Assembly (NCBI GenBank): GCA_902576415.1
Contig: CACGVZ010000010.1
Span: 1-51,653 of the forward strand
From: an uncultured Prochlorococcus sp.
GTDB lineage: Bacteria; Cyanobacteriota; Cyanobacteriia; PCC-6307; Cyanobiaceae
Direction of reading: 5' to 3'
Length of the DNA stretch: 51,653 nucleotides
Shown here: one piece after another, positions 4,920-51,520 of the stretch
Layout: the number at the start of each line of letters is the position of its first letter
Position numbering within the stretch: the first letter of the stretch is position 1
Made by a program: the position numbers and the translations under genes
Notes under the pieces: model-generated
What the model saw: the letters and a program-made list of their open reading frames with translations, nothing else
Told to the model about the DNA's origin: nothing
Database searches by the model: none

Positions 4920-5016
4920 GCCTTCAATATATTTAGGTTTTAAGAAAGAATAAATCCCTCGTTCGAAACAATGTCTCCTTTTAAAAAAAATTTTTTTATT
5001 ATAAGTAAAAAAACAA

Positions 5017-7417: not shown

Positions 7418-8167
7418 ATGAAGACTTATTTAGAAGAACGAATTGAATGGTATGACGATAATTATAGAAATGGTAATGCTTTAATCTCTGATAAGCAGTT
7501 CGACCAACTTGAAAGAAATTTATTAAGAACAAACCCTAATTGTGATTACTTTAAAAAGAAAAATAAACTAGTTTTACCTTCATTAGAAAAGGATTCAATA
7601 GATGAATTTTTGAAAGGATTATTAGTAGATACCAGATTATTAATTGAACCAAAAATTGATGGTTGTGCTGTTGCTTTGCAATATAGGGATGGAACCTTGG
7701 AGAAAGCAATTACAAGAAAAGGGGCAGACGTAACTAGTAAACTTATTAAAGTCCAAGACATTCCCAATAATCTCCCTTTACGAGGAGTTCTTCAAGTTAG
7801 AGGTGAATTATATGCACCCAACCAAAATCCAAATATCTCCCAGAGAATCGCTTCTGGATTTCTAAGAGCTAAAGAAGGATTTTCTGAAAGTCTTAGCTTT
7901 TGTGCATTTCAAATACTTAATTCAACACTTAACCAATATGAGTCCAAAAAGATTCTTTCAAAGCTTGGTTTCACGATCCCTCAGGATATTTCATGCAACT
8001 TTACGAGCCAAATTGAAGTATTTAGAAAACAATGGCTAGAAGGGAAGCTTTTTAGTAAATATCCAACAGATGGAATAGTAGTAAAAATAAATTCTAGAAA
8101 ATTACAATTGATTAGAGAAAAATCAAATTTAGATTATCCTTATTGGCAAGTAGCAATAAAACGTTAA
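7418..8167 (+). CDS. minimal NAD+-dependent DNA ligase (adenylation module only, 249 aa)
   Basis: Contains an Ia-like N-terminal segment (WYDDNYRNGNALISDKQFD) and the nucleotidyltransferase motifs: KIDG (motif I with the AMP-accepting Lys, near residue 84), TRKGADVT, RGELY, DGIVVKI, and WQVAIK (motif V) at the very end. The OB fold, zinc finger, HhH and BRCT domains of standard LigA (about 670 aa) are absent, and the stop follows motif V directly. Such short forms occur in phages and some picocyanobacteria. It may seal nicks with a partner, or only adenylate DNA or protein. Neighbours are tiny membrane genes. Confidence 0.85.
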   Translation: MKTYLEERIEWYDDNYRNGNALISDKQFDQLERNLLRTNPNCDYFKKKNKLVLPSLEKDSIDEFLKGLLVDTRLLIEPKIDGCAVALQYRDGTLEKAITRKGADVTSKLIKVQDIPNNLPLRGVLQVRGELYAPNQNPNISQRIASGFLRAKEGFSESLSFCAFQILNSTLNQYESKKILSKLGFTIPQDISCNFTSQIEVFRKQWLEGKLFSKYPTDGIVVKINSRKLQLIREKSNLDYPYWQVAIKR

Positions 8168-8984: not shown

Positions 8985-9084
8985 AAAAAATAAAATACCT
9001 ACCAAAAGACTTTTATAGCAGGCATTTTGGTAGGTAACACCGGATCCCCGTCAGTTCTCTGCTGCATCGACCTGGAAAAGCCAT
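8985..9084. repeat. element 1 left att: remnant of the 6S RNA 3' end plus terminator
   Basis: About 100 bases closely matching 17014-17112. It contains a 12-bp terminator stem (TACCTACCAAAA / TTTTGGTAGGTA, 8996-9007 with 9025-9036) and a 40-bp core at 9039-9078 identical to 17067-17106. The stem differs from the right copy by a compensating base-pair change. No 5' part of 6S RNA follows, so this is a severed gene end left by integration. Confidence 0.85.
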
Positions 9085-9133
9085 AAACTCATAGGACTCT
9101 AATAATGGCTTGAATAACTAGGTTTCCATTGCT

Positions 9134-10432
9134 ATGTTGGTCCTGCATCATGGACCTGCACTATTGTCTAGTATCCACCAAAGAAAAGGTAGAACTGGTT
9201 ATTACTTAACAGTTGCGACACCTAAGTCTTTAAGATTTAAACTTGGTAACTCAATCAGGAAAAAGGTAGGTAACACTCACAAAGAAGCACTTGCAAACAG
9301 ATCAAAGGTTGAAGCTGAAATACAACGTCAAATAGGAAAAGAACTTAATCAACTTTCTCTCGTGGAGGAAGTTCAAGAGAATTACGGAAAGAATGATCTT
9401 TCTGAATTACCAAACTCCGAGAAAGAGATCCTCAAGAATATATATCAAATTGAATTTGATATTAAAGGAAAACCAACTAACCCTGAAGAGGTCGCACTAT
9501 GGGAGGAACTTGATGGGAAAACAACTTACCATCAATGGATTAATAAAAGAAAAATGATTGAAGGTGTTAGTAAATCAACAGTTAATGGATGGCATACAAA
9601 ACTAAGAAAATTAGCTAGCTGGAAAGGATCAGATTATTTAGGAGAACTTACAAAATCACAAGCAATTAAGTTCAAAGATCATCTTATTCAAAAAGGATAC
9701 GAGTCATCATCAGTCAAAAATATCATTGGGACTCTAAATGCTTTTTGGAATTGGGGAATTGAGAATGAGATTGTCGAAATGAATATTTGGACAGGGTTAA
9801 AAAAAAGATTGCCAGATCCAGAAAAGAAAGGACTGCCTCCAAAAGAAGTCTTATATAAAGCTACAGAAAAAGCTTCAACAATCACTCCCCTAAGAAAAGA
9901 AAAAGATTATGCATTCTTAATTCAAAGATATACAGCTTGTAGAAAAGGAGCTGCTAATGGATTAAGGCACTGTGATATCGATTTAAATAAAAAGACTATT
10001 ACCTTTACAGCATGGGAAAAAGTTGTCAATTACGAAAAGAAGAGAGGTGGGAAAAGAAAAGAGAAACAGGTACGAAGATTGAAGTCTCAAAAAGATGAAA
10101 GAACAATTCCGATGTCAAATGCTCTCTATGAAGCCATAAAAGATATGCCACTTATTAAGGATTCAGATGATCCTATCTGGCCAAATAGATACAAGATTAG
10201 TGATGACTCATGGGGACATCATCATTGCAATGAGTTTAAAAATAAATATGGTTTACCATCTCATGACCTAAGAAGATTTGGAATTACAGCATTAATAAAT
10301 GAGGGTGTATCTCCCTATAGGATTTGGGATGTAGTTAGACATAAAATTCCAGGAATGTCAGAAGTAACCATGATGTACAACAGACCCACAACTGAAGACC
10401 TTATTGAAGCAATGGAAATAATTGCAAAATAG
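9134..10432 (+). CDS. int: tyrosine recombinase / integrase of element 1 (432 aa)
   Basis: N-terminal arm-binding-like segment (RKGRTGYYLTVATPKSLRF), a SAM-like core-binding domain (about residues 130-225), and a catalytic domain with Arg in CRKGAANGLR, Lys in SQKDERTIPM, HDLRR, RHK and the nucleophile Tyr in MMYNRPT. Catalyses site-specific recombination between 6S-gene att sites. The ATG at 9134 is drawn; because arm-like repeats overlap the first codons, a slightly later start is possible. It lies against the severed att rather than the intact target gene. Confidence 0.92.
   Translation: MLVLHHGPALLSSIHQRKGRTGYYLTVATPKSLRFKLGNSIRKKVGNTHKEALANRSKVEAEIQRQIGKELNQLSLVEEVQENYGKNDLSELPNSEKEILKNIYQIEFDIKGKPTNPEEVALWEELDGKTTYHQWINKRKMIEGVSKSTVNGWHTKLRKLASWKGSDYLGELTKSQAIKFKDHLIQKGYESSSVKNIIGTLNAFWNWGIENEIVEMNIWTGLKKRLPDPEKKGLPPKEVLYKATEKASTITPLRKEKDYAFLIQRYTACRKGAANGLRHCDIDLNKKTITFTAWEKVVNYEKKRGGKRKEKQVRRLKSQKDERTIPMSNALYEAIKDMPLIKDSDDPIWPNRYKISDDSWGHHHCNEFKNKYGLPSHDLRRFGITALINEGVSPYRIWDVVRHKIPGMSEVTMMYNRPTTEDLIEAMEIIAK
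9138..9160 (+). repeat. putative integrase arm sites, left end of element 1
   Basis: TGGTCCTGCA (9138-9147) and TGGACCTGCA (9151-9160), 13 bp apart, matching the array at the right end. They overlap the first codons of int, so Int binding could repress its own gene. Confidence 0.6.
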
Positions 10433-10559: not shown

Positions 10560-13500
10560 ATGTTTAAAAATATTTTAGCTTCTTCAGCTAGATTCAACTT
10601 AAGAGCCTCAGTTCAAAGATTAAGTGAAAAATTAGGTCAAAGAACATTCGATAGTACAACTATAAAGTTTGCATTTAACGAAATAAGTGACGTACAAAAA
10701 GATTTATTTTTTCTAGTTGATAATTGGAATCCAACTGTAAAGGGTTTACCACCAGAGAAAGTAATAAGAGATTTTGAAATATTTCTTTTTTCAAAGAGCT
10801 ATACACCTTTAGTTAAAAGATGTCTTGGAATGGCTGCGGGCTTTTTGCCTGATAAAGATTTAAAAACATTTTCATCTCTTTTTAATTATTTTAATGGTGC
10901 TCTAACGCCAGGCAAGGAAAACGAGAAAAAAAGGCAAATTATGTTCCAATTTCTTGAAGCTACAATCTCTGCCTTTGAAGCTGCAAGCAAAATGGATAAT
11001 CATAGTATTGAATATCAGGAAGAATTTAAAAATGAACAAATGAAGCTATGGTCTGATGATTGGTGTAAGAATGAGGATGATTTTGACAATGGATATGATC
11101 CAAATCAAGAATTAAATGAAGGCGAATCTAGATATAGAGGTTATACAGCTCAAGATATAAAGAATGTACTTGATGCAGAGAAAAAAAAAGATGAAATAAA
11201 AAAAAAACCCTTAAAAAGTTCAAATAGTTATAAGAAAAAAAATAGTAAACCAATTCTTGAAAATAATCAGAGTAAATATAAAAGCTTTGAAGAATTAGAA
11301 GAAAAATTTCTTATTCCATTTGTTGGAGGGGATGACAATTTCAAAACAGCTTTATATTGGTGCGACCAAAATATGGATGAAGAATTTAAAAAAAATTTTA
11401 CACGGATTTTTAAAATGAAATCTTTATATGCTTTAAAATTTTCTTATGCAAACGTTATTCATCAATATGAAAAAGCTAACAAAAAAGAATTTACTCGCTT
11501 TGATGATGAATCAATAAATGTAATTTTAGAATTCGGAAGACTTATTGTTTGTAGAGAGAACAAAAGTGAAGATGCAAGAAAACTATCTAATAATGGTGAA
11601 GAAACAATGAATGTTCTTTTCAATAGAAGTGTTGGTAATAATTTGTATAATCAAAGATCTCCAGAAATAATTAGCTTTTTCCCGCATGGGGATAACTCTG
11701 AAAGTGTAATAAATATGATATCAAAAGAGTTTGTAAACTCATATGGAAAAATAAATTTAGAATTAATTGAATGCCTTGAGAATGGAGAGGTCCTGGAATT
11801 CTACGGATTTCTTGGTGAGCATAATGAGGTGCCAGTAAGATTAAATTTATTAAGCAATGAAGAAAAAGAGAAATTATTAGAACTAGTCAATATTGGAGAT
11901 GACAAAGACTTGAATATTAATACTCCAATAGCTCACTTAGATATTCCAGATACAAAATCTATTTTCCCGATAGACAAAGAATGTGAAGATTATGTGAAAA
12001 ATAATATTCCAGAATTTATAAACCTACATAAGCCAACAAGAAAAATTAGTTATCCATTAACTGATATACCGAAAGATATTTATGCATTTTTTAAATCTCT
12101 ATCAAATATTGAAATTGTGGACAAAATTAGTTCTCTTGGTAAGGAAGTTGAATATGAATTAATGTCAGAGGCAACTAATTATTTCTTGAGATATTTAATT
12201 AAACTAAGTAATCCTGACTTTTGGGAATTTGATGATGAAGATGATTTTTGGTATGAACTTTTAAAAATAAAGAAAAATATAACTAATCCATTAATAACCG
12301 AGGATTGGCTGAGAGATCAAATTTATTCACACCTAAAAATTAATAAAAAAACAAAGTCGCCATACTTATACTTTTTTGAGTGGTCAATAGGTGCTCAAGA
12401 TAAATTCAAAAACTTGAATAAATTTATTTCTGAAGTTGATTTTGAAAGAATTTACTCATTATTTTCAATGGCATGGAAAGATGCTATGTCTGAGGAAAGG
12501 ATGAAATCTCTTGATGAAATAAAAATTAATTTCAAAAATTCTTTGAATTATCCTTTTTTATATGAGAGAGAGCCTTTGGTATTTGATGAAGTTGAGGATT
12601 TACCAATTAATAAAAAAGCATTTACCCAGGCTATAGAAGTTACATTATGGGATCGTCAATTGGAAGATCGTATAAGAGGCAATAAATTATCAACTGCCAC
12701 ACAAAATACTATATGGTATTTCAAAATAGAATCTGATCCTGAAATATGCGATTTTGATGGCGATGACAAAGCATTTTTTGAATATTTATTATCGCTTAGA
12801 GAGAGTGCGAGCTCAGTCTCTAAATTAAAAGAATATTTGGATTGGAGAATTGAAGAAGATTTAGAAAATATTGAAAACCTTGAAGAAGATATAGAAGATG
12901 ATTATAGGGAATGGTCAATTGGAAATAAAAATTCATACGAATACCAGACAATTGATGAATTTATTAATGACGTTGATTTTATTGAGGTAGTTAATCAAGT
13001 TAGTTTTGCATATAGAAATTCATTATCGGAAAAACTAATGAAAAGGATTTCAGAACTTGCAAAAACTATGAATAAAAATTTAGAAAAAGAAAATCAAAAT
13101 GCTGAAGATTTTGAATTAGAGTTTGAAGCGGTTCCAGATTCTGAAGATCAAGATAATGAAGATTTTGAATTAGAGTTGGAAGCAGTACCAGATTCTGAAG
13201 ATCAAATAAATCAGGCTGATAAATTAATAAACGAAAAAAGCCAAGTGGAAGTTTCAGAAAAATTTGAAGCATATTGGGATCTAAAAGAATTTAAATTATT
13301 ACTAGAAAAAGGTTTAAAGCTAAATTGCAAATACTTCTTTTTAATAAAACATATAGGGATTTATTTATATGTAAGAAAGACTGACTATAAACCTTCTTAC
13401 AAAGCAAGAAGGGAAGGTGGCGACTTCCTTATATATGCAAAAGGATTTGATGAAAATAAGTTGAGTGATGAAAAAATTGAAATTGATTCTCCTGAATATA

Positions 13501-14264
13501 AAAAAGAATATAATGAGTTAAGACAAAAAACAGATAAATTATATCAAGGAGATTTCTGTGAATGGTTTAATATATCCAATGAACTTTTAAATGAAGTAGA
13601 AGATAAATTAAATCAAGGATTTATTAACTTAAAGATAACTATTTTTAAACCTTTAGAAATTTGTAATGAAGAATTGGCAATTGATAAATCAGAAGAAAAT
13701 GAAGAGAATTTCTTGATGCACGGACAGACAATTAAATATGGAGGTGGATGTCCTGTAAGTCCATTTAATACAAAATTATTTTTAGAATATTTTAGTTTTA
13801 GCGGACAAGAAAAATTATCAGAAACCTATAATGGCAAAAAACTTTTTATAAATAGTTTATCTGCAACCAATATTTTAAATAAAAATAGGGAGGAAGAATT
13901 CTCACATTATTGTGATATCGTTGGCAAATCGGAAGAAAAAGAAGATGCAGGTAATCTTGATGAAGCAATTCTTTTATTATCTCAAGCAATTGAAAAGTAT
14001 CCTCAATTTCCTATTGCTTACTTTAAAAGAGGAAAAATATTTAGAGGTTTAGGCGAAATTGAAAAGGCAATATTGGACTATGACAGATACATTTCAATTT
14101 TTCCTGAAGATTTTAAAGGTTACGTAAATAGAGGAATAGCCAAAGCTCAAGGTGAAGATTTTCAAGGTGCAAAAATAGATTTAGAAGAAGGACTTAAAAT
14201 TAATCCTAAAGATCAAATTGCTCTTTTTCATTTGAAAGAAGTTAAGAAAAAAATGAATGATTAA
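10560..14264 (+). CDS. large acidic TPR protein, unknown family (1234 aa)
   Basis: No enzymatic motif (Walker, nuclease, protease or methylase) is visible. The N-terminal 150 residues are helical. A Lys-rich linker (about 205-240) follows, then a long acidic helical body. The region at about 551-654 resembles 724-836: both run FD.DD.FwyeLL ... EWSIG ... FI.dVDF ... S.ekmK, a diverged duplication. An acidic tandem repeat (DFELE.EAVPDSEDQ twice) lies near 848-882. Residues about 1125-1230 are three TPR units (GNLDEAILLLSQAIEKYP, GEIEKAILDYDRYISIFP, DFQGAKIDLEEGLKINP). It looks like a cytosolic scaffold or sensor. The 269-aa gene starts 2 bases later. Main cargo of element 1; a defence role is speculation. 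Confidence 0.85.
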   Translation: MFKNILASSARFNLRASVQRLSEKLGQRTFDSTTIKFAFNEISDVQKDLFFLVDNWNPTVKGLPPEKVIRDFEIFLFSKSYTPLVKRCLGMAAGFLPDKDLKTFSSLFNYFNGALTPGKENEKKRQIMFQFLEATISAFEAASKMDNHSIEYQEEFKNEQMKLWSDDWCKNEDDFDNGYDPNQELNEGESRYRGYTAQDIKNVLDAEKKKDEIKKKPLKSSNSYKKKNSKPILENNQSKYKSFEELEEKFLIPFVGGDDNFKTALYWCDQNMDEEFKKNFTRIFKMKSLYALKFSYANVIHQYEKANKKEFTRFDDESINVILEFGRLIVCRENKSEDARKLSNNGEETMNVLFNRSVGNNLYNQRSPEIISFFPHGDNSESVINMISKEFVNSYGKINLELIECLENGEVLEFYGFLGEHNEVPVRLNLLSNEEKEKLLELVNIGDDKDLNINTPIAHLDIPDTKSIFPIDKECEDYVKNNIPEFINLHKPTRKISYPLTDIPKDIYAFFKSLSNIEIVDKISSLGKEVEYELMSEATNYFLRYLIKLSNPDFWEFDDEDDFWYELLKIKKNITNPLITEDWLRDQIYSHLKINKKTKSPYLYFFEWSIGAQDKFKNLNKFISEVDFERIYSLFSMAWKDAMSEERMKSLDEIKINFKNSLNYPFLYEREPLVFDEVEDLPINKKAFTQAIEVTLWDRQLEDRIRGNKLSTATQNTIWYFKIESDPEICDFDGDDKAFFEYLLSLRESASSVSKLKEYLDWRIEEDLENIENLEEDIEDDYREWSIGNKNSYEYQTIDEFINDVDFIEVVNQVSFAYRNSLSEKLMKRISELAKTMNKNLEKENQNAEDFELEFEAVPDSEDQDNEDFELELEAVPDSEDQINQADKLINEKSQVEVSEKFEAYWDLKEFKLLLEKGLKLNCKYFFLIKHIGIYLYVRKTDYKPSYKARREGGDFLIYAKGFDENKLSDEKIEIDSPEYKKEYNELRQKTDKLYQGDFCEWFNISNELLNEVEDKLNQGFINLKITIFKPLEICNEELAIDKSEENEENFLMHGQTIKYGGGCPVSPFNTKLFLEYFSFSGQEKLSETYNGKKLFINSLSATNILNKNREEEFSHYCDIVGKSEEKEDAGNLDEAILLLSQAIEKYPQFPIAYFKRGKIFRGLGEIEKAILDYDRYISIFPEDFKGYVNRGIAKAQGEDFQGAKIDLEEGLKINPKDQIALFHLKEVKKKMND

Positions 14265-14266
14265 AA

Positions 14267-15076
14267 ATGAAAAATTTTAAATTTGAAAATTGGTCTAAAG
14301 ATAACTGCTTAGAGTTAATATCTTCGGTGAAAGAAGTTATTAATTGGGAGGACCCTTTAGAAGTAGCTAATGACCTTTTGAAATTAGCCATTGATTTTAA
14401 ATCCAAAGGAAGTCCACAAGCTGATACATATAAGAAAGCTCATGAATTAGCAATGGAAAATATTTACGAAGGCGGTGGAGATCCATTTAAAACAGCGTTA
14501 GAAAGCAATAATCCAGTAGATGTAGTTAGTACATCGCTTTATATGATTGCTGATAGGCTTTATAACTTTGGTAGAGAAGGATTTATTAAGAATGAAAAAG
14601 GGGAAATTCCAGAGGGTTATTTAGTTGCTGCTTTCGCACAAGTAGAAATTATTTACGGAGCATTCAACTTACTTTCCTGTAATACAGATGCATTTTATAA
14701 AGCGACAATCACTTCAAAAATATTTCCGCCAATGTTTCCAGAAAAACATGAAAAAATTAAAGACTCAATTGATGAATTTATACACAATAAACAAATACAA
14801 ATTGGTGTGATTCAGCCTCTTTCAGTTTTCCTAAGTTTTCTTCTTTATGATAAGAAACCAAATCCAAAATTTATAGTGAATTTTATTGATGGAAATGTAT
14901 GTAAAATTTTAGTTAAAGTCCTCACTGGAAAGCCAAATGAGGCAGTAGAAATGTGTGAAATGTTCAAATTTCAAAATGAAAAGGAATCTATTGACGAAGA
15001 AAAAAAGGCGGACAAATCTTCTCCCGATAACTCATCTAGTTCATTTAGACCGTTTGGCAAAAAAGATATTCCATAA
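14267..15076 (+). CDS. unknown helical protein coupled to the TPR protein (269 aa)
   Basis: Starts 2 bases after the stop of the 1234-aa gene, so it is very likely coexpressed and a partner. Mostly helical (ELISSVKEVINWEDPLEVAND, YLVAAFAQVEIIYGAFNLLS). It has a conspicuous EGGGDPFKTALE turn and a disordered, charged Ser-rich tail (SSPDNSSSSFRPFGKKD). No signal peptide or membrane helix. No family recognised. Confidence 0.85.
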   Translation: MKNFKFENWSKDNCLELISSVKEVINWEDPLEVANDLLKLAIDFKSKGSPQADTYKKAHELAMENIYEGGGDPFKTALESNNPVDVVSTSLYMIADRLYNFGREGFIKNEKGEIPEGYLVAAFAQVEIIYGAFNLLSCNTDAFYKATITSKIFPPMFPEKHEKIKDSIDEFIHNKQIQIGVIQPLSVFLSFLLYDKKPNPKFIVNFIDGNVCKILVKVLTGKPNEAVEMCEMFKFQNEKESIDEEKKADKSSPDNSSSSFRPFGKKDIP

Positions 15077-15509
15077 ACCACTGCAAACACAAATGAGTGA
15101 GCGATGGCGTCCTTATAAGGGGAAAAGCAAGCATGGAGGGAAACGAGGAGAATTCCTAATCCTTTGCAATCACTAACGAGTGAGCGATAACGTCCTTATA
15201 AGGGGGAAAGCAAAACCACCATTAAAAAATAAAAACAAAACAACTAATTAAAATCATTAAAAATTGACTGACTAGCAGAACTAACTAACTGCTATTACTA
15301 CCGTATTGAGGCGGGCGGTAGCTCTTATACAACAAGAGGCGGAGCCTAACTTCGTTAACCTGATATCCTCAGCGAACGAAGTGAGCGGGTGAATGGATAT
15401 CCTTTTAACTGTTCCCCACACTCATCTAACTAAAGGGATAGTGATGATATTAATTACCATGAACATCCATAAATAACACTATTAATACCAACTCAATAAA
15501 CAAACAAAA
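15077..15509 (+). other. 433-base non-coding block with repeats and hairpins
   Basis: Richer in G+C than its flanks and without a convincing gene. It holds two about 45-bp direct repeats (near 15080-15131 and 15164-15216) sharing GAGTGAGCGAT and CGTCCTTATAAGGGG. It also holds successive inverted repeats: TAGCAG/CTGCTA (15273-15278, 15289-15294), CTACCG/CGGTAG (15298-15303, 15316-15321), CTCTT/AAGAG inside an AGGC...GCCT frame, and GATATCC/GGATATC (15362-15368, 15395-15401) followed by TTTT. A structured RNA, a packaging/replication site or an operator cluster are all possible. Confidence 0.5.
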
Positions 15510-15728
15510 ATGAAGTATCACAACAACAAACTATTTAATAGAGATCTTAAGCTAGCTATTAATCTTGCAATAAAAATAAAACATCAACATGACAAATCAA
15601 AAAATAATCCTAGAGATTATTCAGCTCTTCAATCATTCTTTACTAATGAACTATATGTTGATGGTGGAGTTGTAAGAATAAGATTAAATGTTGACAGGGG
15701 ATTTAAAATTATGACTGCTCAAACATAA
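15510..15728 (+). CDS. small basic protein (72 aa)
   Basis: Begins MKYHNNKLFNRDLKLAINLA and ends VRIRLNVDRGFKIMTAQT. Basic and Asn/Lys-rich, perhaps nucleic-acid binding. It directly follows the structured non-coding block and precedes the 271-aa acidic gene by 7 bases, so the two may form a basic/acidic pair. Unknown family. Confidence 0.6.
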   Translation: MKYHNNKLFNRDLKLAINLAIKIKHQHDKSKNNPRDYSALQSFFTNELYVDGGVVRIRLNVDRGFKIMTAQT

Positions 15729-15735
15729 TATAATT

Positions 15736-16551
15736 ATGTTCATCTTTAAAGTAGGATCTGATGAAGTTAAGGTAAGAACTTATAGAGAGTTTAAATATTT
15801 AAGTGACAAAGAAAAGATTTCTTATGTATGGGATGACTTGTGGCCAGATGATTTAGGAATGACCTGGATTGAAAAAGTTTTATATGATCATGATACAGGC
15901 GATTTAGGTTTGCCTGAAATATGGGATGAATATGTATCTGAATTTTATCCAGAAAAGTATAAAGAAATTGAAAATGAAGAACCTGAAGATATTCATAAAA
16001 AGAGAGAATCGATATTTGAATTTATAGATGACTTAGACGGTAAGGAATACTCAAGAGCACTGTTATTTCTAGTAAACAAAGTTTACGATGAGAGTCTTTT
16101 TTATGATTGGCTAATTGATTCTGTCAAAGAACAGGAAGATTTTACTCAAACTCATTTAGATGCGGATAAAAAAAATGAAGAATTTAAAAAAAAATATCAA
16201 ATCCCTGTTTCCGAAAAGATCAGAAGGGCTATAAAAACACTTTATTTGAACAAAAAAATTAATGAAGCTACATTTCAATGCTTCACAATAATTGCTGAGA
16301 ATCTTAAAAATAATGAGATTCAAGAAAAGAAAGAGGAATTTCTTGATGATATTTCATCCGTTGAGTCATTTGAAAATCAAATAAGAAGTGGTCTAAATTC
16401 TTTAGAGGAGGAAGAAGGAAGTGACGTAAACAAAATTTTTAAAATTAGACAATCAAAAAGATATGCGGATTTAAGTGAATTTTTAAATGATCTAGATTAC
16501 GAAATTATGCAAAAAGTATTTAATGAAATGATTAAAGAACAATTTGAATAA
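15736..16551 (+). CDS. acidic protein of unknown family (271 aa)
   Basis: Strongly acidic, with Trp-rich early part (YVWDDLWPDDLGMTWIEKVLYD) and helical remainder. The segments IFEFIDDLDGKEYSRALLFL and LSEFLNDLDYEIMQKVF echo the FI.dVDF modules duplicated in the 1234-aa protein, hinting at a shared fold or common system. No signal peptide or membrane helix. Last gene of the element 1 cargo. Confidence 0.75.
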   Translation: MFIFKVGSDEVKVRTYREFKYLSDKEKISYVWDDLWPDDLGMTWIEKVLYDHDTGDLGLPEIWDEYVSEFYPEKYKEIENEEPEDIHKKRESIFEFIDDLDGKEYSRALLFLVNKVYDESLFYDWLIDSVKEQEDFTQTHLDADKKNEEFKKKYQIPVSEKIRRAIKTLYLNKKINEATFQCFTIIAENLKNNEIQEKKEEFLDDISSVESFENQIRSGLNSLEEEEGSDVNKIFKIRQSKRYADLSEFLNDLDYEIMQKVFNEMIKEQFE

Positions 16552-16680
16552 ATTGATGATGATGATTAAAGATTCAATTAATGAGATATTTACTTACTAC
16601 TTCTACTGATTTTTAACTACTAAAAATTGATAATAAAAAATAGCACAAATTTCACAACCCTAATATCGCTACAGCAGGGA

Positions 16681-16710
16681 TTTAGATTAGCCCCCCTGGG
16701 GGGGTCTAAA
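16681..16710. repeat. G/C-tract foldback palindrome
   Basis: TTTAGA, then CCCCCC-T-GGGGGGG (16691-16704), then TCTAAA, giving nested inverted repeats of 6 + 6 bp with almost no loop. Unusual in roughly 30% GC DNA. No T-run follows, so it is not an obvious terminator. Possible protein-binding, origin or packaging site. Confidence 0.55.
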
Positions 16711-16818
16711 AGCCCCTAGAATAAGCCTCAGCCATAAAAAAGGTTACTATCAAGTTAGTATGCAGTCCCTAAATTCAAGGCATTTAGTTACCGTCAGCTA
16801 CGATTATACGTATTATAG

Positions 16819-17001
16819 TGGTCCTGCATTATTGATTTTTTTATAAAGGAAAAGCCAGTAATCGATTCTTTTTATATCCTATTAATAAGAAATTTATTTA
16901 TCTAGCGATCTGTTGCCTCAGTTATTACTTAGTTTTGTGAGCAATTGCTAATATGGTCCTGCAATTGGTACTGCAATTTGGTCCTGCACTGTGGTCCTGC
17001 A
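16819..17001 (+). repeat. putative integrase arm sites, right end of element 1
   Basis: TGGTCCTGCA at 16819-16828, 16954-16963, 16979-16988 and 16992-17001, plus variant TGGTACTGCA at 16966-16975. The last four are spaced 12-13 bp, just over one helical turn, and stop just before the att repeat. The same word occurs at the left end beside int. Confidence 0.7.
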
Positions 17002-17013
17002 CCACTAATAATG

Positions 17014-17112
17014 AAAAATAAAATACCTATCAAAAGCCTGTCATAACAAGCAGTTTGATAGGTAATACCGGATCCCCGTCAGTTCTCTGCTGCATCGACC
17101 TGGAAATGCCAG
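17014..17112. repeat. element 1 right att (within the 3' end of 6S RNA)
   Basis: Pairs with 8985-9084. The 40-bp identical core (17067-17106) forms the 3' part of the intact 6S RNA. Homology decays just after CTGGAAA, setting the likely crossover limits. Confidence 0.85.
17020..17064 (-). terminator. 6S RNA terminator
   Basis: Minus-strand stem TACCTATCAAA / TTTGATAGGTA (17024-17034 with 17054-17064), followed on the minus strand by a run of T and A. Lies directly behind the 6S RNA. The left att keeps a second, covarying version. Confidence 0.75.
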
Positions 17113-17241
17113 AAGAGGATTCAAAGTGGGCTTTCGTTTCCGATTACAAGATCGGTTTACTACCGCATCACGACAGTCTCCTCATGTCGAAAGAGAGTCA
17201 GATCAGAGCACATAAAGAAGAACTTAACCAAAGATCCAGTA
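17066..17241 (-). ncRNA. ssrS: 6S RNA
   Basis: Minus-strand RNA just downstream of purK, the known cyanobacterial position of the 6S gene. Its ends pair as a closing helix: ACTGGATC at 17240-17233 with GATCCGGT at 17074-17067. The interior is a long, imperfectly paired rod, as in 6S RNAs that mimic an open promoter and bind RNA polymerase holoenzyme. About 176 nt, near the usual 175-190 nt. Ends are approximate. It may be transcribed from its own promoter and by readthrough from purK. The 3' part was supplied by element 1 upon integration. Confidence 0.8.
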
Positions 17242-17262
17242 ATCTAACTCTAACTTATTTTT

Positions 17263-18453
17263 TTATGCATTTGGAGATGGCCAAATGTCTCTTACCATAG
17301 TTAATAAAAGTTGAGCCTCATCATATCTTTCTGAATGCGTTTTACCATTTAATAAAAATGTGATATGAGCCATTTTTCTTCCTAGAATTTCGCGAGATTT
17401 GCCATAACAATGCATATTAGAACCCTCAATTTGACATAACATTTTAATTCTGGTTTCCATTGAGATTGGGAAATTCTTTCTTAATCCCAGTAGATTTATC
17501 ATAATTGCCCCTTCACAGTTCATTTTAATTTCAGGTGGTATTATCCCAGAAGAAATGCAAACATATTGATCAAACTGACTAGAAGTGCAAGCTTCAATAG
17601 AGAAATGAGCTGAGTTATGTGTTCTAGGAGCTATTTCATTAATTAAAAGACCATTATCTCCATAGAAGAATTCAATAGCTAAAACTCCAACGTAATTAAG
17701 TTCATTGACTATTGAAGAGAAAATATTTATTGCAAATAAGTTCAAATCATATTCATTTATTCCAGGTGCAAGAACCCAATCACAAACATGATTTGATTGG
17801 AATGTCTCAACTATTGGAAAGAATCTTATCTTACCGGCCCTATCTCTCGAACCAACCAGAGCCAGTTCTTTTTCATACTCTATCCATTCTTCTATTAACC
17901 ATTCATCAGAATTATTCTCTGTTAAAAAAGAATCTAAATCCTCTTTTGTCTTTATTTTTCTGTTCCCTTTGCCGTCATATCCACCTTTATTTGATTTTGC
18001 CATTAGAGGGAAAGTCCAATTATTAATTTCCTCATCCGGGAGATTTTTAAAATCTTCAATACTTATCCATTTTGGACAGGGAATATTCATTCTATCTATT
18101 AATTTCTTTTGAGAAAACCTATCTACTAATGGCTTAATTGCATTAAGGCTTGGAACAAAAATATCGTTATTGTCAATTAAATTTAATTTATCAATTTTTA
18201 TCCATTCATTTTCAAAAATTATTTTTTCACACTCATTAATTAATGATTTATTACCTCTTATCTTTAAAGGATCAGCTTCTATGACATGATCTGCTTTTGA
18301 ACCAGCAGGATCATCACAAGATTTTGTTTGCACACATACTTCTAAATTCCTTTTTTTTGCTGCCTCGGTTAACATCAAAGCAAGTTGACCACCGCCAATT
18401 ATTCCTAGGGAATAATTTTTCTTAATATCGTTTATATTTTTTTTAAAACTCAT
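17263..18453 (-). CDS. purK: N5-carboxyaminoimidazole ribonucleotide synthase
   Basis: ATP-grasp enzyme of purine synthesis: AIR + ATP + bicarbonate gives N5-CAIR. The N-terminus LGIIGGGQLALMLTEAAKK (about residues 16-34) is the PurK-type nucleotide-binding start. The ATP-grasp body has PLMAKSNKGGYDGKGN (residues 149-164), IEEWIEYEKELAL and NEIAPRTHNSAHFSIEACTSSQFDQ near the active site. Full length at 396 aa. The 6S RNA follows about 20 bases downstream on the same strand; aroB diverges upstream. Confidence 0.96.
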   Translation of the reverse strand: MSFKKNINDIKKNYSLGIIGGGQLALMLTEAAKKRNLEVCVQTKSCDDPAGSKADHVIEADPLKIRGNKSLINECEKIIFENEWIKIDKLNLIDNNDIFVPSLNAIKPLVDRFSQKKLIDRMNIPCPKWISIEDFKNLPDEEINNWTFPLMAKSNKGGYDGKGNRKIKTKEDLDSFLTENNSDEWLIEEWIEYEKELALVGSRDRAGKIRFFPIVETFQSNHVCDWVLAPGINEYDLNLFAINIFSSIVNELNYVGVLAIEFFYGDNGLLINEIAPRTHNSAHFSIEACTSSQFDQYVCISSGIIPPEIKMNCEGAIMINLLGLRKNFPISMETRIKMLCQIEGSNMHCYGKSREILGRKMAHITFLLNGKTHSERYDEAQLLLTMVRDIWPSPNA

Positions 18454-41619: not shown

Positions 41620-41924
41620 AAAACAAATTTTATAATCTTAAGAATTTTACATTTAAAAGTTCATTAAATAAAAAATACTTCTCAAAAACGAACAAAATGT
41701 AACCTGCAAGAAATTACAAAAATATAAACGTAAATACTTTAGAAGAAACCTAAGTTCATAATTAAAGTATTAAGTTTATTTATTAAAGACCTAGACAAAT
41801 ATTTTTTGGGGATGTTAATATATTTTTGTAGCAACCGCTACCAAAACGTTCAACTTGCTTATAGCAAGCCGCAAATCGACTTAAGCCATGGAACGGGGAC
41901 TTAAGCGACAACGGAGCTTAAAAA
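41620..41924 (+). promoter_or_regulatory. promoter/structured leader of the DUF4278 gene
   Basis: The first about 200 bases are AT-rich with no gene visible. The leader has GTAGC-AACC-GCTAC (41828-41841), CTTGCT-TAT-AGCAAG (41854-41868) and a repeated GACTTAAGC (41878-41886, 41898-41906) whose CTTAAG palindromes can pair. GC-richer than its surroundings. A riboregulator or a short ncRNA upstream of the tiny gene is possible. Confidence 0.4.
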
Positions 41925-44479: not shown

Positions 44480-45409
44480 GTGTTACTTCCGAAAGACCTA
44501 GCTTTACTAAAAACATTAGAAAAAGATTTTGTTCTTTTACCAGTAGGTGCAGACCACCCAACTTCAATAATTAAGAAGAAAAAAGCACCTGTTAATCCTA
44601 GAGGTGGTTTATTGAGTGGTTGGAATAAGCCAGAACTTAAAGGCTTTACTGTAGATCAACTTTGGAACTATAGGTCTGCAATATCTGTTGGCGTTAGGTG
44701 CGACAACTTATTTGTAGAAGATATAGACGGAGGTTCAGCAAGTAAAGGTTTAAATAGACTACTAGGTTGGGGAGAACCTACCTGGACTATTAGGAGAACT
44801 GGTTGCGAAGGATATTTTAAAAGAATATTCTGTCCAACCAAAGAACAATTAAGTGCTATTCCTCCAAATAAAAAAGGGAAAAAGGAAATAAGTTTTCCTA
44901 TTTATACCTTAGAAGAACCTGACCGCAGAGAAGCTATCGAGTTCTTTGGTAATACACTTGGACGACAAGTTATTGTGTCTGGTTCGCACTATTCGAGTGG
45001 CGGTAGGTATTACTGGAACGATAACGAGAGTCCTAAATATATAAGACCTCCAAGCGTTAGAGAGTGGAATAAAGTTCTTAAATTGTGGAAGCAATTCTTA
45101 GACGAAAAAACTCCTACACCTGGACTTGTTACTAAGAACAAAACTGGTTGGACTAGGTTAGCTGAGTGTCCGATTTGTGGACGAGTCGAAAGACCTGTCT
45201 GCACAATTACGGACGATTTGAACACAATAAGTTGTTTTCACGGAATTACTTATAGACCACCGCTTGATCTAAAGAAAGGCGAAGTTTTATTTAATACTTG
45301 GGCGTATTCACGGACTGAAGATAAATCTTTTGGGACATTTTCATATTTCGCAAGACATAAACCTAGCTCACTCGAATTGCTTAATCGGAGGTTAAAGATT
45401 AGTGGTTAA
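44480..45409 (+). CDS. primase-polymerase (PrimPol) domain protein (309 aa)
   Basis: GTG start after a GGGGAGGG SD. N-terminal bifunctional primase/polymerase fold: PRGGLLSGWNKPE, IDGG acid motif in LFVEDIDGGSAS, a His in VSGSHYSSGGRYYW. A C-terminal zinc-like segment has CPICGR and a later C/H pair (CFHG). Primes and copies the element's DNA. The next gene (VirE-like helicase) overlaps by 8 bases, the usual PrimPol-helicase pairing of phages and satellites. Confidence 0.82.
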   Translation: MLLPKDLALLKTLEKDFVLLPVGADHPTSIIKKKKAPVNPRGGLLSGWNKPELKGFTVDQLWNYRSAISVGVRCDNLFVEDIDGGSASKGLNRLLGWGEPTWTIRRTGCEGYFKRIFCPTKEQLSAIPPNKKGKKEISFPIYTLEEPDRREAIEFFGNTLGRQVIVSGSHYSSGGRYYWNDNESPKYIRPPSVREWNKVLKLWKQFLDEKTPTPGLVTKNKTGWTRLAECPICGRVERPVCTITDDLNTISCFHGITYRPPLDLKKGEVLFNTWAYSRTEDKSFGTFSYFARHKPSSLELLNRRLKISG

Positions 45410-47150: not shown

Positions 47151-47723
47151 TTAAGCAAAGGCTTGGGCTACATTCTTTCGTTCCTCCTCCGAAACCTCCA
47201 AATACCTGGACAGAACAGCCAAAGATTTATGACCACTTAGGGTCTGAATCGCCTTTAATGGCAACCCTTTTGAACTTGCGGAAGTTAAAGCACTTCTGCG
47301 GTAAGAGTGGCTTGAAACGCCTTTAAAACCAATCCTTTCAATAGTGATCTGAAGTTGTTTTCCGTGAGCCTGGCGAGTTATTGGTTTATCGCCAAAACGT
47401 CCAACAAATACCCAATCACTTGGACTAACTGGTTGACCCTTTATAAGTTCGATTTCTTGTTTCCATTCCATTAGTAGGTCATACAGACTTGAGAAAATTG
47501 GAATAGTCCTGGACTCCAAAGTTTTCGTTACTCCTTTCGGAAAAGTAATTCCACCTGGAAAAATGTTTTCCCATTTGAGTTGCCTGGCTTCTGAAATTCT
47601 GCAACCTGTTCGGCGACAAACATTAGCCAAGACTGTATGAACTCCTTTCGGAAGTTCGTGTATTAATAGGTCAAGTTCAGCAGTTGTTAAAACTTTTGAC
47701 TGACCATTACGATTAGTCTTCAT
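47151..47723 (-). CDS. lone tyrosine-recombinase catalytic domain (190 aa)
   Basis: Only the catalytic domain is present: Arg in RRTGCRISEARQL, Lys region GVTKTLESRTIPI, HSYRRS, LSGHKSL and the Tyr in YLEVSEEE. The N-terminal SAM-like domain is missing. Complete active-site set, so it may act as a resolvase/invertase or as a helper to the full integrase at 49947-51161, rather than being dead. Confidence 0.82.
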   Translation of the reverse strand: MKTNRNGQSKVLTTAELDLLIHELPKGVHTVLANVCRRTGCRISEARQLKWENIFPGGITFPKGVTKTLESRTIPIFSSLYDLLMEWKQEIELIKGQPVSPSDWVFVGRFGDKPITRQAHGKQLQITIERIGFKGVSSHSYRRSALTSASSKGLPLKAIQTLSGHKSLAVLSRYLEVSEEERKNVAQAFA

Positions 47724-49755: not shown

Positions 49756-49950
49756 CTATTGTTGCTGTTGTTGTTGCTGGGTTACTGTCTGTTGAAATTC
49801 TAGTTTTCTTGCTTGTCTATGTAGTCCCGACCAAGTTGCGGTTTTCCGTTGAGCTAAAAGAATAATCTTTTGTTTGTTCTTAGGGGTCAACTTGTACTTT
49901 TTTAGAAGTTTTCCAAGTGCTAGTGAATTAATAGAATTACAAGTATTCAT
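49756..49950 (-). CDS. small basic protein with poly-Gln tail (64 aa)
   Basis: Basic helical body (LGKLLKKYKLTPKNKQKIIL, ATWSGLHRQARKL) ending TVTQQQQQQQ, encoded by a CAA/CAG run near the 3' end. ATGA overlap with the integrase stop shows coupling. Could be an Xis-like or DNA-binding helper of the integrase; no family recognised. Confidence 0.6.
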   Translation of the reverse strand: MNTCNSINSLALGKLLKKYKLTPKNKQKIILLAQRKTATWSGLHRQARKLEFQQTVTQQQQQQQ

Positions 49951-51161
49951 TTATTTAGTTTCTTACTTGCTTTTATAGCGTCAATTTGTTCATAAGTAGA
50001 GTTATAAATTTCGTAGTGAGTATTGATCGAGTGACCTAAAGATTTACTTGCAACCCTCGCATCTAACCCAGCGTGTATTGATCTAACTCCCCAATTATGT
50101 CGAATATCCGTAAGTTGTAAGAATCCAATACCCAACTCTTTGGCTCTAGGGGTTAGATACCTTAACCATTGGTTGCCAAGATATTTAGTCCTGGTTGGGT
50201 CATAAGAATTTAAGTCAAAACTATATTCTCGTTGAATATTATCTAGTTCCCATTTTCTTGCTAACTCAGCAGTAAGGGCGATTGGATATTTTATATACAT
50301 AGATTTCTTTCCTTTTGGAATACAGACACTTGTTGCAGTTCCGCTATCTAAGTCGGGTATGAGTGAGAAAGTTTCTCCGCTACGAGTGCCGTAACAGAAA
50401 GCACAAGCTGTAAGCCAACCCCATTTGTCGTTATCTCTTACCATTTCGACCAACTCTATTAACTTTGCTGGGTCAATATTTACTCTTTGCTTAGCTTTGT
50501 ATTTACCAACAAACTCGTCAATAAGTTCTACATTATTTAGTCCGTTAGCTTCAGCAAGTCTTTTGTAGTATTGGCAGAGTTTTCTTCTTTTATCAGACTC
50601 AGGTTCACTTTGTTTTATCTCATCAATTAAGACTCCCATATTTAGAGTTGCACTTTGTGGAAGTTTATTTAAGTGACCTAGTATTCCTTTCCAGGTCTGT
50701 TGCTTTGGTAATTTATTTCTATCTTTGTCTTTCCAGTAATCAAGTTCAAATATTTTTATAGCTTCATTAACAGTTATTCCTTTAGATACTCCTTTTAACT
50801 CAACCTTTGGTGCGTCCCACATTAGTTGGTCTGGTATAAATCCGTTTTTATTTACATATTCAACTAAGGTCAATATTCTTGCTTCTGCTGAGACAAGGTT
50901 GTTTTTATCTGCACTCAATCTAGTTGGAATCTTACGTTCCTTTTTTATTCCGTCCGAATCCGCAAAAGTTCCACGAATAAATAAATGATTTCGTCCTACA
51001 ACTAACTTTGCTTTTATGTTTCTTGTCTTAAGTCTGTTGTTTAAGTCCAATATTGCTGAAAGTGTTTCCGAATCTGTTTCCGAATTTCTTGCAATAGACC
51101 CTCCTCCTGGTACACTACCGCCAGAACCTTTTTTGTTACCAATTCCAAAAATTCTTGCCAT
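49947..51161 (-). CDS. int: tyrosine recombinase / integrase of element 2 (404 aa)
   Basis: Catalytic residues: Arg in YGTRSGETFSL, Lys in PKGKKSMYI, RHNWGVR, GH in SLGHSINTHYE and the Tyr in EIYNSTYEQ. A core-binding domain lies at about 115-205. The N-terminus is Gly/Ser-rich and its codons (SETDSET) overlap arm-like repeats. Expected to recombine tRNA-Ser att sites. Heads a coupled minus-strand operon with the poly-Q protein, a membrane peptide and DUF1651. Lies beside the restored tRNA. Confidence 0.92.
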   Translation of the reverse strand: MARIFGIGNKKGSGGSVPGGGSIARNSETDSETLSAILDLNNRLKTRNIKAKLVVGRNHLFIRGTFADSDGIKKERKIPTRLSADKNNLVSAEARILTLVEYVNKNGFIPDQLMWDAPKVELKGVSKGITVNEAIKIFELDYWKDKDRNKLPKQQTWKGILGHLNKLPQSATLNMGVLIDEIKQSEPESDKRRKLCQYYKRLAEANGLNNVELIDEFVGKYKAKQRVNIDPAKLIELVEMVRDNDKWGWLTACAFCYGTRSGETFSLIPDLDSGTATSVCIPKGKKSMYIKYPIALTAELARKWELDNIQREYSFDLNSYDPTRTKYLGNQWLRYLTPRAKELGIGFLQLTDIRHNWGVRSIHAGLDARVASKSLGHSINTHYEIYNSTYEQIDAIKASKKLNK

Positions 51162-51316: not shown

Positions 51317-51347
51317 ACTTAGGTGGTTAAAACTGAATAACCCATTT

Positions 51348-51387
51348 GGAGGGGTGGTCGAGTGGTTTAAGGCTCTAGTCTTGAAAA
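51348..51387 (+). repeat. element 2 right att (5' half of intact tRNA-Ser)
   Basis: Perfect 40-bp partner of 43236-43275. Because the element rebuilds the 5' half, the tRNA stays complete after integration. Confidence 0.92.
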
Positions 51388-51434
51388 CTAGCGTGTCTGC
51401 AAGGGCACCGTGGGTTCGAATCCCACCCCCTCCG
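51348..51434 (+). tRNA. tRNA-Ser (anticodon UGA)
   Basis: 87-nt class II tRNA: acceptor GGAGGGG / CCCCTCC with discriminator G; D arm GTCGAGTGGTTTAAGGC; anticodon stem CTAGT/ACTAG with loop CTTGAAA (anticodon TGA, reads UCA); a long variable arm; T arm GTGGGTTCGAATCCCAC. CCA is not encoded. Target site of element 2, which supplied its first 40 bases. Confidence 0.96.
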
Positions 51435-51520
51435 TTCAAAATAAAATGCAAACGAAATTCAACCGAATAATATAAACGCCTTTTAGGTAAGTCTTTGTTA
51501 AAATCTATCTTATTTAGACA

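Follow-up and report, generated by a model that had tools for sequence, protein, structure and literature searches.

In a 51,653-nucleotide stretch of DNA from an uncultured Prochlorococcus sp. (GenBank assembly GCA_902576415.1, contig CACGVZ010000010.1, positions 1–51,653 of the forward strand; hereafter the window), the interval 10560–16551 comprises, as judged from sequence comparison, the cargo and the control region of a small integrative element of Prochlorococcus whose insertion target is the 3′ end of the 6S RNA gene. The control region, a non-coding block at 15077–15509, resembles in sequence the intergenic DNA directly after the terminase large-subunit gene of T7-like cyanopodoviruses, and the two have in common the order and orientation of promoter-like sites, a hairpin with an RTRTCC/GGAYAT stem, a leader and a small gene. 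We propose, with a probability of roughly 55%, that the element is phage-satellite-like and that its control region would be read by the RNA polymerase of an infecting podovirus, for induction, replication or packaging. Similarity, order, orientation and recurrence of the block are apparent in the sequences compared, and from them we infer the function. The parts of the block are as follows.

15100–15129, + strand: weak phage-promoter-like site 1 (score 9.2)
15183–15212, + strand: phage-promoter-like site 2 (score 12.4)
15233–15362, + strand: stretch 5′ of the hairpin, conserved in part of the blocks and able to form stem-loops (block comparison, folding)
15363–15400, + strand: hairpin with an ATATCC/GGATAT outer stem, common to T7-like cyanophages 3′ of the terminase gene (phage and IMG/VR matches)
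15401–15509, + strand: conserved leader up to the gene for a 72-amino-acid (72-aa) protein, partly similar to the P-SSP7 post-terminase region (block comparison)

A blastn search of 15077–15740 against 50,697 phage records returned, at E ≤ 0.01, only the T7-like podovirus S-SRP01 (87%, E = 2e-8), in which the matching DNA is intergenic, between maturase B (669–2441) and thymidylate synthase (2809). The core CTCAGNGAACGAAGTGAGCGGG occurs in IMG/VR in 24 stretches on 23 contigs, with a maturase B relative (88–96% identity) directly upstream in all 24 and a thymidylate synthase relative downstream in 22; three longer or type B hairpin patterns gave no match each in that database. The outer stem is altered on both sides, reading ATATCC/GGATAT in the elements versus ATGTCC/GGACAT in these phages. 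In P-SSP7, within the 156 bases that follow the terminase gene, CCCCTACGTATACAGGGGAAG, a short hairpin ATATCCGTGAATGATAT and AACACT..TAACTAAAGG..TAATAACACTAT come one after another in the order seen in the element blocks. A profile built from 19 blocks of bacterial loci (G249 left out), searched against 2 whole phages and 16 terminase-region stretches, found S-SRP01 at 1.8e-10 and the post-terminase stretch of S-CBP3 at 0.006. We also ranked 812–836 test windows per phage genome, on both strands, by their similarity to each of 18 of the 20 blocks (G249 and G237b left out). The post-terminase test window ranked first with 18 of 18 blocks in S-SRP01 (median z 12.0) and with 13 of 18 in P-SSP7 (median z 4.6), and our element's own block placed it first in both (z 12.9 and 4.9, respectively); an earlier run with 13 blocks had 11 ranked first. 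In P-SSP7, the only phage with this control, shuffled blocks came first in 4 of 54 trials (Fisher p 2e-7, for blocks that are related to one another).

The layout of promoters in these phages can be anchored on Syn5, for which PMC3950665 gives only two promoters for the phage RNA polymerase, one of them inside the polymerase gene. We located the Syn5 promoter 15-mer within the polymerase gene (position 4929) and five bases past the terminase stop codon (position 44797). A repeat likewise links the polymerase gene and the post-terminase region in P-SSP7 (AACCCCTACGTATACAGGGG, 0 mismatches in 20) and P-SSP2 (AACAGTYACGTATACAGGGGAA, 1 mismatch) and, more loosely, in P-GSP1 (2 mismatches), S-CBP3 (2) and S-SRP01 (3). 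Candidate RNA polymerase promoters were thereby noted in five cyanopodoviruses (L155, L164, L165, L166 and L120), placed as in Syn5 in the polymerase gene and after the terminase gene; for P-SSP7 they are as follows.

P-SSP7 (L155), 6853 and ~43820: candidate promoters in the polymerase gene and after the terminase gene, a Syn5-like layout

The predicted phage sites share TATACAGGGG or a shortened form of it and differ in their 5′ halves, which would fit promoters of diverged polymerases as we infer them from position, the Syn5 pair alone coming from published work. A motif of 14 positions was trained on 12 of 16 phage sites, leaving out P-SSP3 (the same as P-SSP2), S-RIP1, MedS28C3 and the post-terminase site of S-SRP01.

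Applied to 19 bacterial loci with 20 hairpins (285.5 kb), this motif found 48 sites at a score of at least 14 within 1 kb upstream of a hairpin and on its strand, none on the opposite strand there and 2 elsewhere, with at least one site in 13 of the 19 loci; at a score of at least 12 the counts were 55, 0 and 7, and 15 loci. Twelve hairpins (11 loci) lie in stretches that also hold the 6S integrase, its remnant or the 6S attachment sequence and account for 21 of the 48 sites (0–4 each), and the other 8 hairpins, with no such integrase or attachment sequence within the stretch compared, account for 27 (0–8 each); among these 8 is that of G249, whose block almost equals the one of G142. Sites are often spaced 26–28 bp apart. 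Arrays, defined as at least two sites scoring at least 14 on the same strand no more than 1 kb upstream, were found at 9 of the 20 hairpins (G052, G104 contig 14, G007, G066, G124, G117, G115 and both of G237) and in G119, making 10; block counts are not independent, the G142 and G249 blocks being near-identical and likewise those of G007 and G119. Six whole phage genomes scanned showed no tandem array. Two scans with strict tandem-pair patterns each matched 6 of 266 genus genomes, a lower bound, at 8 and 15 sites, respectively; together they cover 8 genomes, the window's own not among them, and the reversed pattern matched none of the 266.

The 5′ halves of the island sites point to particular phages. 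In 19 of the 20 blocks (G249 left out), 22 of 44 distinct 10-nucleotide (10-nt) halves, two positions of which are motif columns, differed from a phage half by two mismatches or fewer (on average 0.27 and at most 3 in the null). Among 33 distinct 8-nt halves wholly outside the motif, 4 are identical to one of 11 phage halves (null mean 0.013, maximum 1) and, counting those, 9 differ from one by at most a single mismatch (null mean 0.22, maximum 3; 2,000 shuffles). The four exact halves are of P-SSP7, P-SSP2, S-SRP01 and P-GSP1 type, and the G124 locus combines the last three. In G120, one of the genomes matched in the tandem-pair scans (L201 6722–7540; G120:C4 ~110720–111540), 15 sites scoring at least 12 extend over ~0.8 kb and are followed by ATGTCCCATTAATGGACAT, one base from the hairpin after the S-B28 terminase; a 544-aa open reading frame upstream of that array has only a sub-threshold integrase match (PF00589, E = 0.001), and the G124 island encodes a 370-aa frame with an integrase match (phrog_1, E = 2.6e-8). 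As read from these sequences, the arrays sit in islands, of which some are demonstrably integrative. Two arrays (L113, 6448–7424, and L115) lack the 72-aa gene and have after the hairpin a 218-aa and a ~90-aa gene; the 218-aa protein of L113 matched no Pfam family above cut-off. Near the rich array of G104 contig 14, L108 5865–6101 encodes a 78-aa protein with weak helix-turn-helix and excisionase matches.

The broader proposal, to which we assign about even odds, is that Prochlorococcus islands act as a polyvalent receiver, in which banks of promoters tuned to different T7-like cyanophages, together with a copy of the post-terminase hairpin, would allow activation, replication and possibly packaging by many podoviruses, the 6S element of the window being a reduced example. 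The array claim is, in sequence terms, a claim about related islands rather than about the window copy, which has no site at a score of at least 14, one at 12 or above and so no array as defined. Because its array amounts to two weak sites, the window copy may have another promoter specificity or be decaying.

The block recurs well beyond the window. It was found in 44 of 266 genus genomes at E ≤ 0.001 and in 19 of those at E < 1e-8 (all such counts include the window's own genome), the better matches being 75–96% identical over the aligned parts; wider flanks were examined for 18 of these 19. The hairpin of the window is intact and identical to those of G092, G142, G249, G010 and G224. The earlier note on this DNA had described the block as structured and repeat-rich, and it does fold more stably than shuffled versions (z −3.1; 0 of 100 shuffles as stable) and overlap a 75-nt direct repeat (77%) at 15056/15139; Rfam on 14900–17300 gave only 6S RNA at E ≤ 1. 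That note had also suggested an RNA component in the middle of a defence system, a candidate that we reject: the block recurs without the accompanying proteins, its relatives outside the genus are phage DNA, and it looks more like phage-type cis-acting DNA than an RNA partner.

Five genes, all on the + strand, lie between 101-nt direct repeats in the 8,028-bp element. The genes and block that the note had listed are all at the places it gave, and its name for the element, after 6S RNA, agrees with the Rfam match, the repeats and the recombinase listed here.

8986–9086, no strand: left attachment repeat, a copy of the 6S RNA 3′ end plus flank (101-nt direct repeat, 89%; empty sites in relatives)
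9134–10432, + strand: integrase, a tyrosine recombinase (PF00589, phrog_1; relatives occupy the same 6S site)
10560–14264, + strand: 1234-aa acidic mosaic protein, cargo (domain matches in other genomes)
14267–15076, + strand: 269-aa orphan protein, cargo (1 of 266 genomes)
15510–15728, + strand: 72-aa basic protein, first gene 3′ of the block and found again in sister elements (15 of 266 genomes, counting its own)
15736–16551, + strand: 271-aa acidic protein, second gene 3′ of the block (8 of 266 genomes, own included)
16819–17013, no strand: right end, conserved, whose GGTCCTGCA-like repeats are presumed to be arm sites for the integrase (similar stretches in L080, L110, L117 and others)
17014–17114, no strand: right attachment repeat, extending into the 6S RNA 3′ end (101-nt direct repeat, 89%)
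17061–17245, − strand: 6S RNA gene, the integration target (RF00013, 94.3 bits)

The integrase comes after the left repeat and contains CRKG, HDLR, RHK and MYNR in that order, which we take to be the order expected of tyrosine recombinase catalytic residues. Among 24 loci of relatives that hold the left flank, 13 are empty, with the flank joined unbroken to the 6S attachment sequence; in another 2 the spacing is as expected, with 15 or 37 bases left unaligned, 2 are occupied by an integrase, 4 have 6S after extra DNA and 3 lack 6S within the stretch compared. From these empty and occupied sites come the size of the element and our view, on the sequences at hand, that it has moved recently in evolution. 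Beside the 6S site, and conserved there in sister loci, a 249-aa protein (7418–8167) matches only the adenylation domain of NAD-dependent DNA ligase. Further tyrosine-recombinase matches at 47151–47723 and 49947–51161, the second below the family cut-off, lie near tRNA-Ser at 51347–51435, the sole tRNA gene of the window; this is perhaps a second integrative element. A Glutamine-II riboswitch lies at 41844–41905 (70.2 bits).

The cargo of sister 6S elements is different, but the block and the 72-aa gene are common to several of them. We compared 8 loci with a related integrase, from L079 on, listing matches to the 1234-aa TPR protein up to residue 1100. None of the 8 has the 1234-aa, 269-aa or 271-aa gene; L079 ends 0.7 kb after the integrase, L084 ends inside it, and the integrases of L083 and L085 are more distant (61 and 58% identity). 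Four of these loci (L080, L081, L082 and L086) have the hairpin, three of them with the 72-aa gene. In MIT 9314, which has a block beside a shortened integrase, a phosphonate-binding protein is the cargo, between the integrase and the right-end sequence; the G043 6S element (L106 8044–11718) carries a 1224-aa protein with a SUFU domain, a family that we assume to be immunity-like in bacteria; and the AG-418-D13 element carries a GIY-YIG protein. Genes after the block differ between elements, some being of secreted type, and certain elements have a disrupted or shortened 72-aa gene or none at all.

As to the cargo itself, the acidic and basic characters noted from sequence agree with the computed isoelectric points of 4.8 (1234-aa), 5.2 (269-aa), 10.1 (72-aa) and 4.6 (271-aa), and the 269-aa gene indeed starts two bases past the 1234-aa stop codon. 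The TPR repeats were correctly recognized and are limited to the C terminus (residues ~1128–1221) of a protein that otherwise comprises domain A (1–170), repeats B (~541–654 and ~725–833) and domain C (~900–1105). Other genomes have these parts (the first ~170 residues, the two ~110-residue repeats and the ~200-residue domain) singly or in new combinations, in some cases as independent genes of about 150–180 aa. The protein is matched in 240 of 266 genomes at E ≤ 0.001, among the matches listed mostly through its TPR repeats, and those matches include reshuffled domains but no full-length counterpart. Searches for close relatives gave no match to it in the named genome collection, and its only phage match is in the TPR region. 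Of the 266 genomes, only its own encodes the 269-aa protein, and a search for close relatives of that protein in IMG/VR found none; the 271-aa protein occurs in 8, in other gene settings, and the 72-aa protein in 15, its best phage match having E = 3.

That no known motif was visible in the cargo also stands. Against the family libraries, no curated cut-off was passed by the four proteins except for TPR (Pfam); an HHH_6 match in the 271-aa protein stayed below threshold, at 21.0 bits where 25.6 are required, PHROGs gave one family of unknown function covering the TPR part, and PADLOC returned for the window cargo only AriA, for the 271-aa protein at E = 0.059, with no membership of a defence family. 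Structure predictions were too poor to use (mean predicted local distance difference test scores of 53 for the 72-aa protein, from four sequences, and 49 for the 271-aa protein, from a single sequence). The 1234-aa and 271-aa proteins may, by analogy, be immunity-type mosaic proteins, an idea that no direct match supports and that arises from the SUFU domain in sister cargo and from DUF6891 and WGR proteins near relatives of the 271-aa protein. Such relatives in L041 and L043 stand close to a 366- or 363-aa protein, the latter, in L043, having WGR and ATP-dependent ligase domains.

We propose that, when a T7-like cyanophage infects, its single-subunit RNA polymerase would fire at a matching site in the block and transcribe the 72-aa gene and the genes downstream of it, including the 271-aa gene. 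As all five genes lie on one strand, transcription of an excised circle could run on through the joined attachment site (attP) into the integrase and cargo. Replication origins of the T7 type are phage promoters, so the block might also serve as an origin at which phage-dependent replication could start and end in packaging into phage heads; plasmids carrying both a T7 origin and a concatemer junction do get packaged. On this view the element would travel with podoviruses as a satellite or hitchhiker, and its cargo, in the window the acidic mosaic TPR protein and the 269-aa protein, would be exchangeable.

The nearest known kinds of element are tycheposons (Hackl 2023) and virion-encapsidated integrative elements (VEIMEs; Eppley 2022), which we compared through secondary descriptions. 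Like the tycheposons of Prochlorococcus, described at second hand in excerpts of PMC10872708 and PMC10187409, the element has a tyrosine recombinase with flanking direct repeats, a structural RNA gene as target, an island setting and swappable cargo that includes nutrient functions, as in the phosphonate-binding protein of the MIT 9314 element. Unlike them, it targets 6S RNA and not a tRNA gene, the excerpt of PMC10872708 giving seven tRNA genes as tycheposon targets in Prochlorococcus. VEIMEs, in the excerpts of PMC10803314 and PMC11389934, are likewise marine integrative elements thought to ride in virions; unlike them, the 6S element shows no sign of encapsidation in an IMG/VR integrase search for close relatives. 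In size (8.0 kb, ~1/5.6 of P-SSP7), possession of an integrase with no virion family recognized in the five element proteins (Pfam and PHROGs scans), variable cargo and lack of capsid genes, it resembles phage-inducible satellites such as the phage-inducible chromosomal minimalist islands (PICMIs), of which PICMI115 is 6.1 kb, or ~1/8 of its phage, in the excerpt of PMC10803314. It differs from PICMIs as presented there in that no AlpA-like regulator, excision factor or replication gene was recognized among the five element proteins (smaller open reading frames lay outside the scan), and in that a T7-like podovirus is suspected as helper, with its RNA polymerase as the presumed trigger. As for satellite-type cis sequences, the stretches shared with T7-like cyanophages are clear and the helper is suspected only. 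Position, order and orientation of promoter, hairpin and leader are those of the post-terminase region of T7-like cyanopodoviruses and the Syn5 promoter; unlike that region, the block lies in a bacterial mobile element whose relatives have several promoter-like sites instead of one.

Some tycheposons have reportedly been called viral satellites and found in virions by Hackl et al. in 2023, and we know of no description of a phage-like promoter and hairpin block in them. A literature search of titles and abstract openings turned up no satellite or bacterial island described as having promoters for a phage RNA polymerase, and nothing on 6S RNA as an integration target.

Several observations weigh against the satellite reading. 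On the element side, the window's own sites are weak (9.2 and 12.4), the 5′ half of the better one differing at five positions from the closest phage half; lowering the score to 12 still leaves 4 of 19 loci without a site, and the richest arrays (G124, G104 contig 14, G117 and G120) lie outside demonstrated 6S elements. Family-library scans of the five element proteins (smaller open reading frames outside the scan) recognized none of the Xis, Rep, capsid or packaging families. An IMG/VR search for close relatives of the integrase found none and gave no sign there of elements in virions. The P-SSP7 counterpart of the block lies about 1 kb from the terminal repeat mapped in the excerpt of PMC3350473, which counts against packaging; the separate idea that the block is itself a phage terminal repeat is rejected on the same distance.

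On the phage side, when two other blocks (type B) served as DNA queries, one found no cyanophage and the other found S-SRP01 at 2e-5 with the rest at chance level. The block profile missed the P-SSP7 post-terminase region and reached P-SSP2 and P-SSP3 only at E = 3.5; in the rank test, the post-terminase test window came first with only 6 of 18 blocks in P-SSP2, 6 of 18 in S-CBP3 and none of 18 in P-GSP1 or Syn5, and the 4 first places among 54 shuffled trials exceed the expectation for one test window in 816. The hairpin pattern occurs in 8 of 18 podovirus regions, with one variant written after P-SSP7 had been seen. In S-CBP3 another repeat outscored the promoter pair, in a promoter-repeat comparison made without a shuffled control, and for S-CBP3 and P-GSP1, which have no annotated polymerase gene, we took that gene to lie in the gap expected to hold it. 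At a score of at least 14 the phage layout is imperfect: S-CBP3 has only the polymerase-gene site, the second P-GSP1 site falls inside the terminase gene, S-SRP01 has two unexplained sites and Syn5 has two matches other than its promoters. Five of the scanned phages also trained the motif, so re-finding their sites is circular.

The strongest rival, which we consider unlikely, is an infection alarm in which the phage polymerase switches on the 72-aa and downstream genes, whose products stop the infection and protect the host without packaging. The sites do point at the 72-aa gene or whatever follows the hairpin, with followers differing between elements; several 5′ halves would cover several phages; and the SUFU domain in sister cargo and the DUF6891 and WGR/ligase proteins beside 271-aa relatives are modular and could belong to conflict systems. 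Against an alarm stand the PADLOC result for the window cargo, the outcome for ten related-locus proteins (one matching TPR models, another Cas8b at E = 0.008, and no more), the secreted-type and other proteins among the post-block genes of some elements, and the consideration that a simple switch needs no phage-like hairpin and leader.

Less probable still is a scar: recombination would have brought in neutral phage DNA, or a shared hairpin resembling a terminator, that now has no role. The weakness of the window sites, which are unlike those of the phages tested, and the damaged, shortened or absent 72-aa gene of some elements would fit it. Arrays absent from the six whole phage genomes seem instead to have been built up in islands, the better block matches keep their 75–96% identity, and every upstream site is in the sense orientation, 48 to 0. 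We regard as very unlikely a decoy, in which arrays would bind and use up phage RNA polymerase and so slow the phage without any gene product. The tandem arrays, which reach 8 sites at a score of 14 or more beside a hairpin and 15 at 12 or more in G120 and have varied 5′ halves, would suit such a sink. Against it, a single chromosomal copy would face a replicating phage, the orientation, the hairpin and the leader into a gene are conserved, and the window has just two weak sites.

Scarcely credible is the reading of the earlier note, an undescribed four-gene defence system with a central RNA, for which the tight gene pair at 10560–15076 beside an integrase and the structured block might speak, and against which the block's best relatives outside Prochlorococcus are phage intergenic DNA, the block recurs without these proteins and the 8 related-integrase loci show no TPR, 269-aa or 271-aa gene (L079 and L084 ending near or inside the integrase). 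What survives of that proposal is an unknown, island-borne set of genes beside an integrase, now with a link to phages; what does not is a single tightly coupled system, given a 269-aa gene in 1 of 266 genomes, a reshuffled 1234-aa protein and a 271-aa gene in other settings. The co-occurrence it had proposed as a check failed to appear in sister elements, where the block goes with different cargo, often with the 72-aa gene.

If the satellite reading is right, the block would tie the mobile islands of a photosynthetic organism abundant across the globe to its T7-like viruses through a specific cis-acting sequence, and nutrient genes would have a path from cell to cell. The reading would also predict the RNA polymerase promoters of cyanopodoviruses, and it would suggest that the promoter bank of an island is a record of phages met, whose 5′ halves could point to the helper phages.

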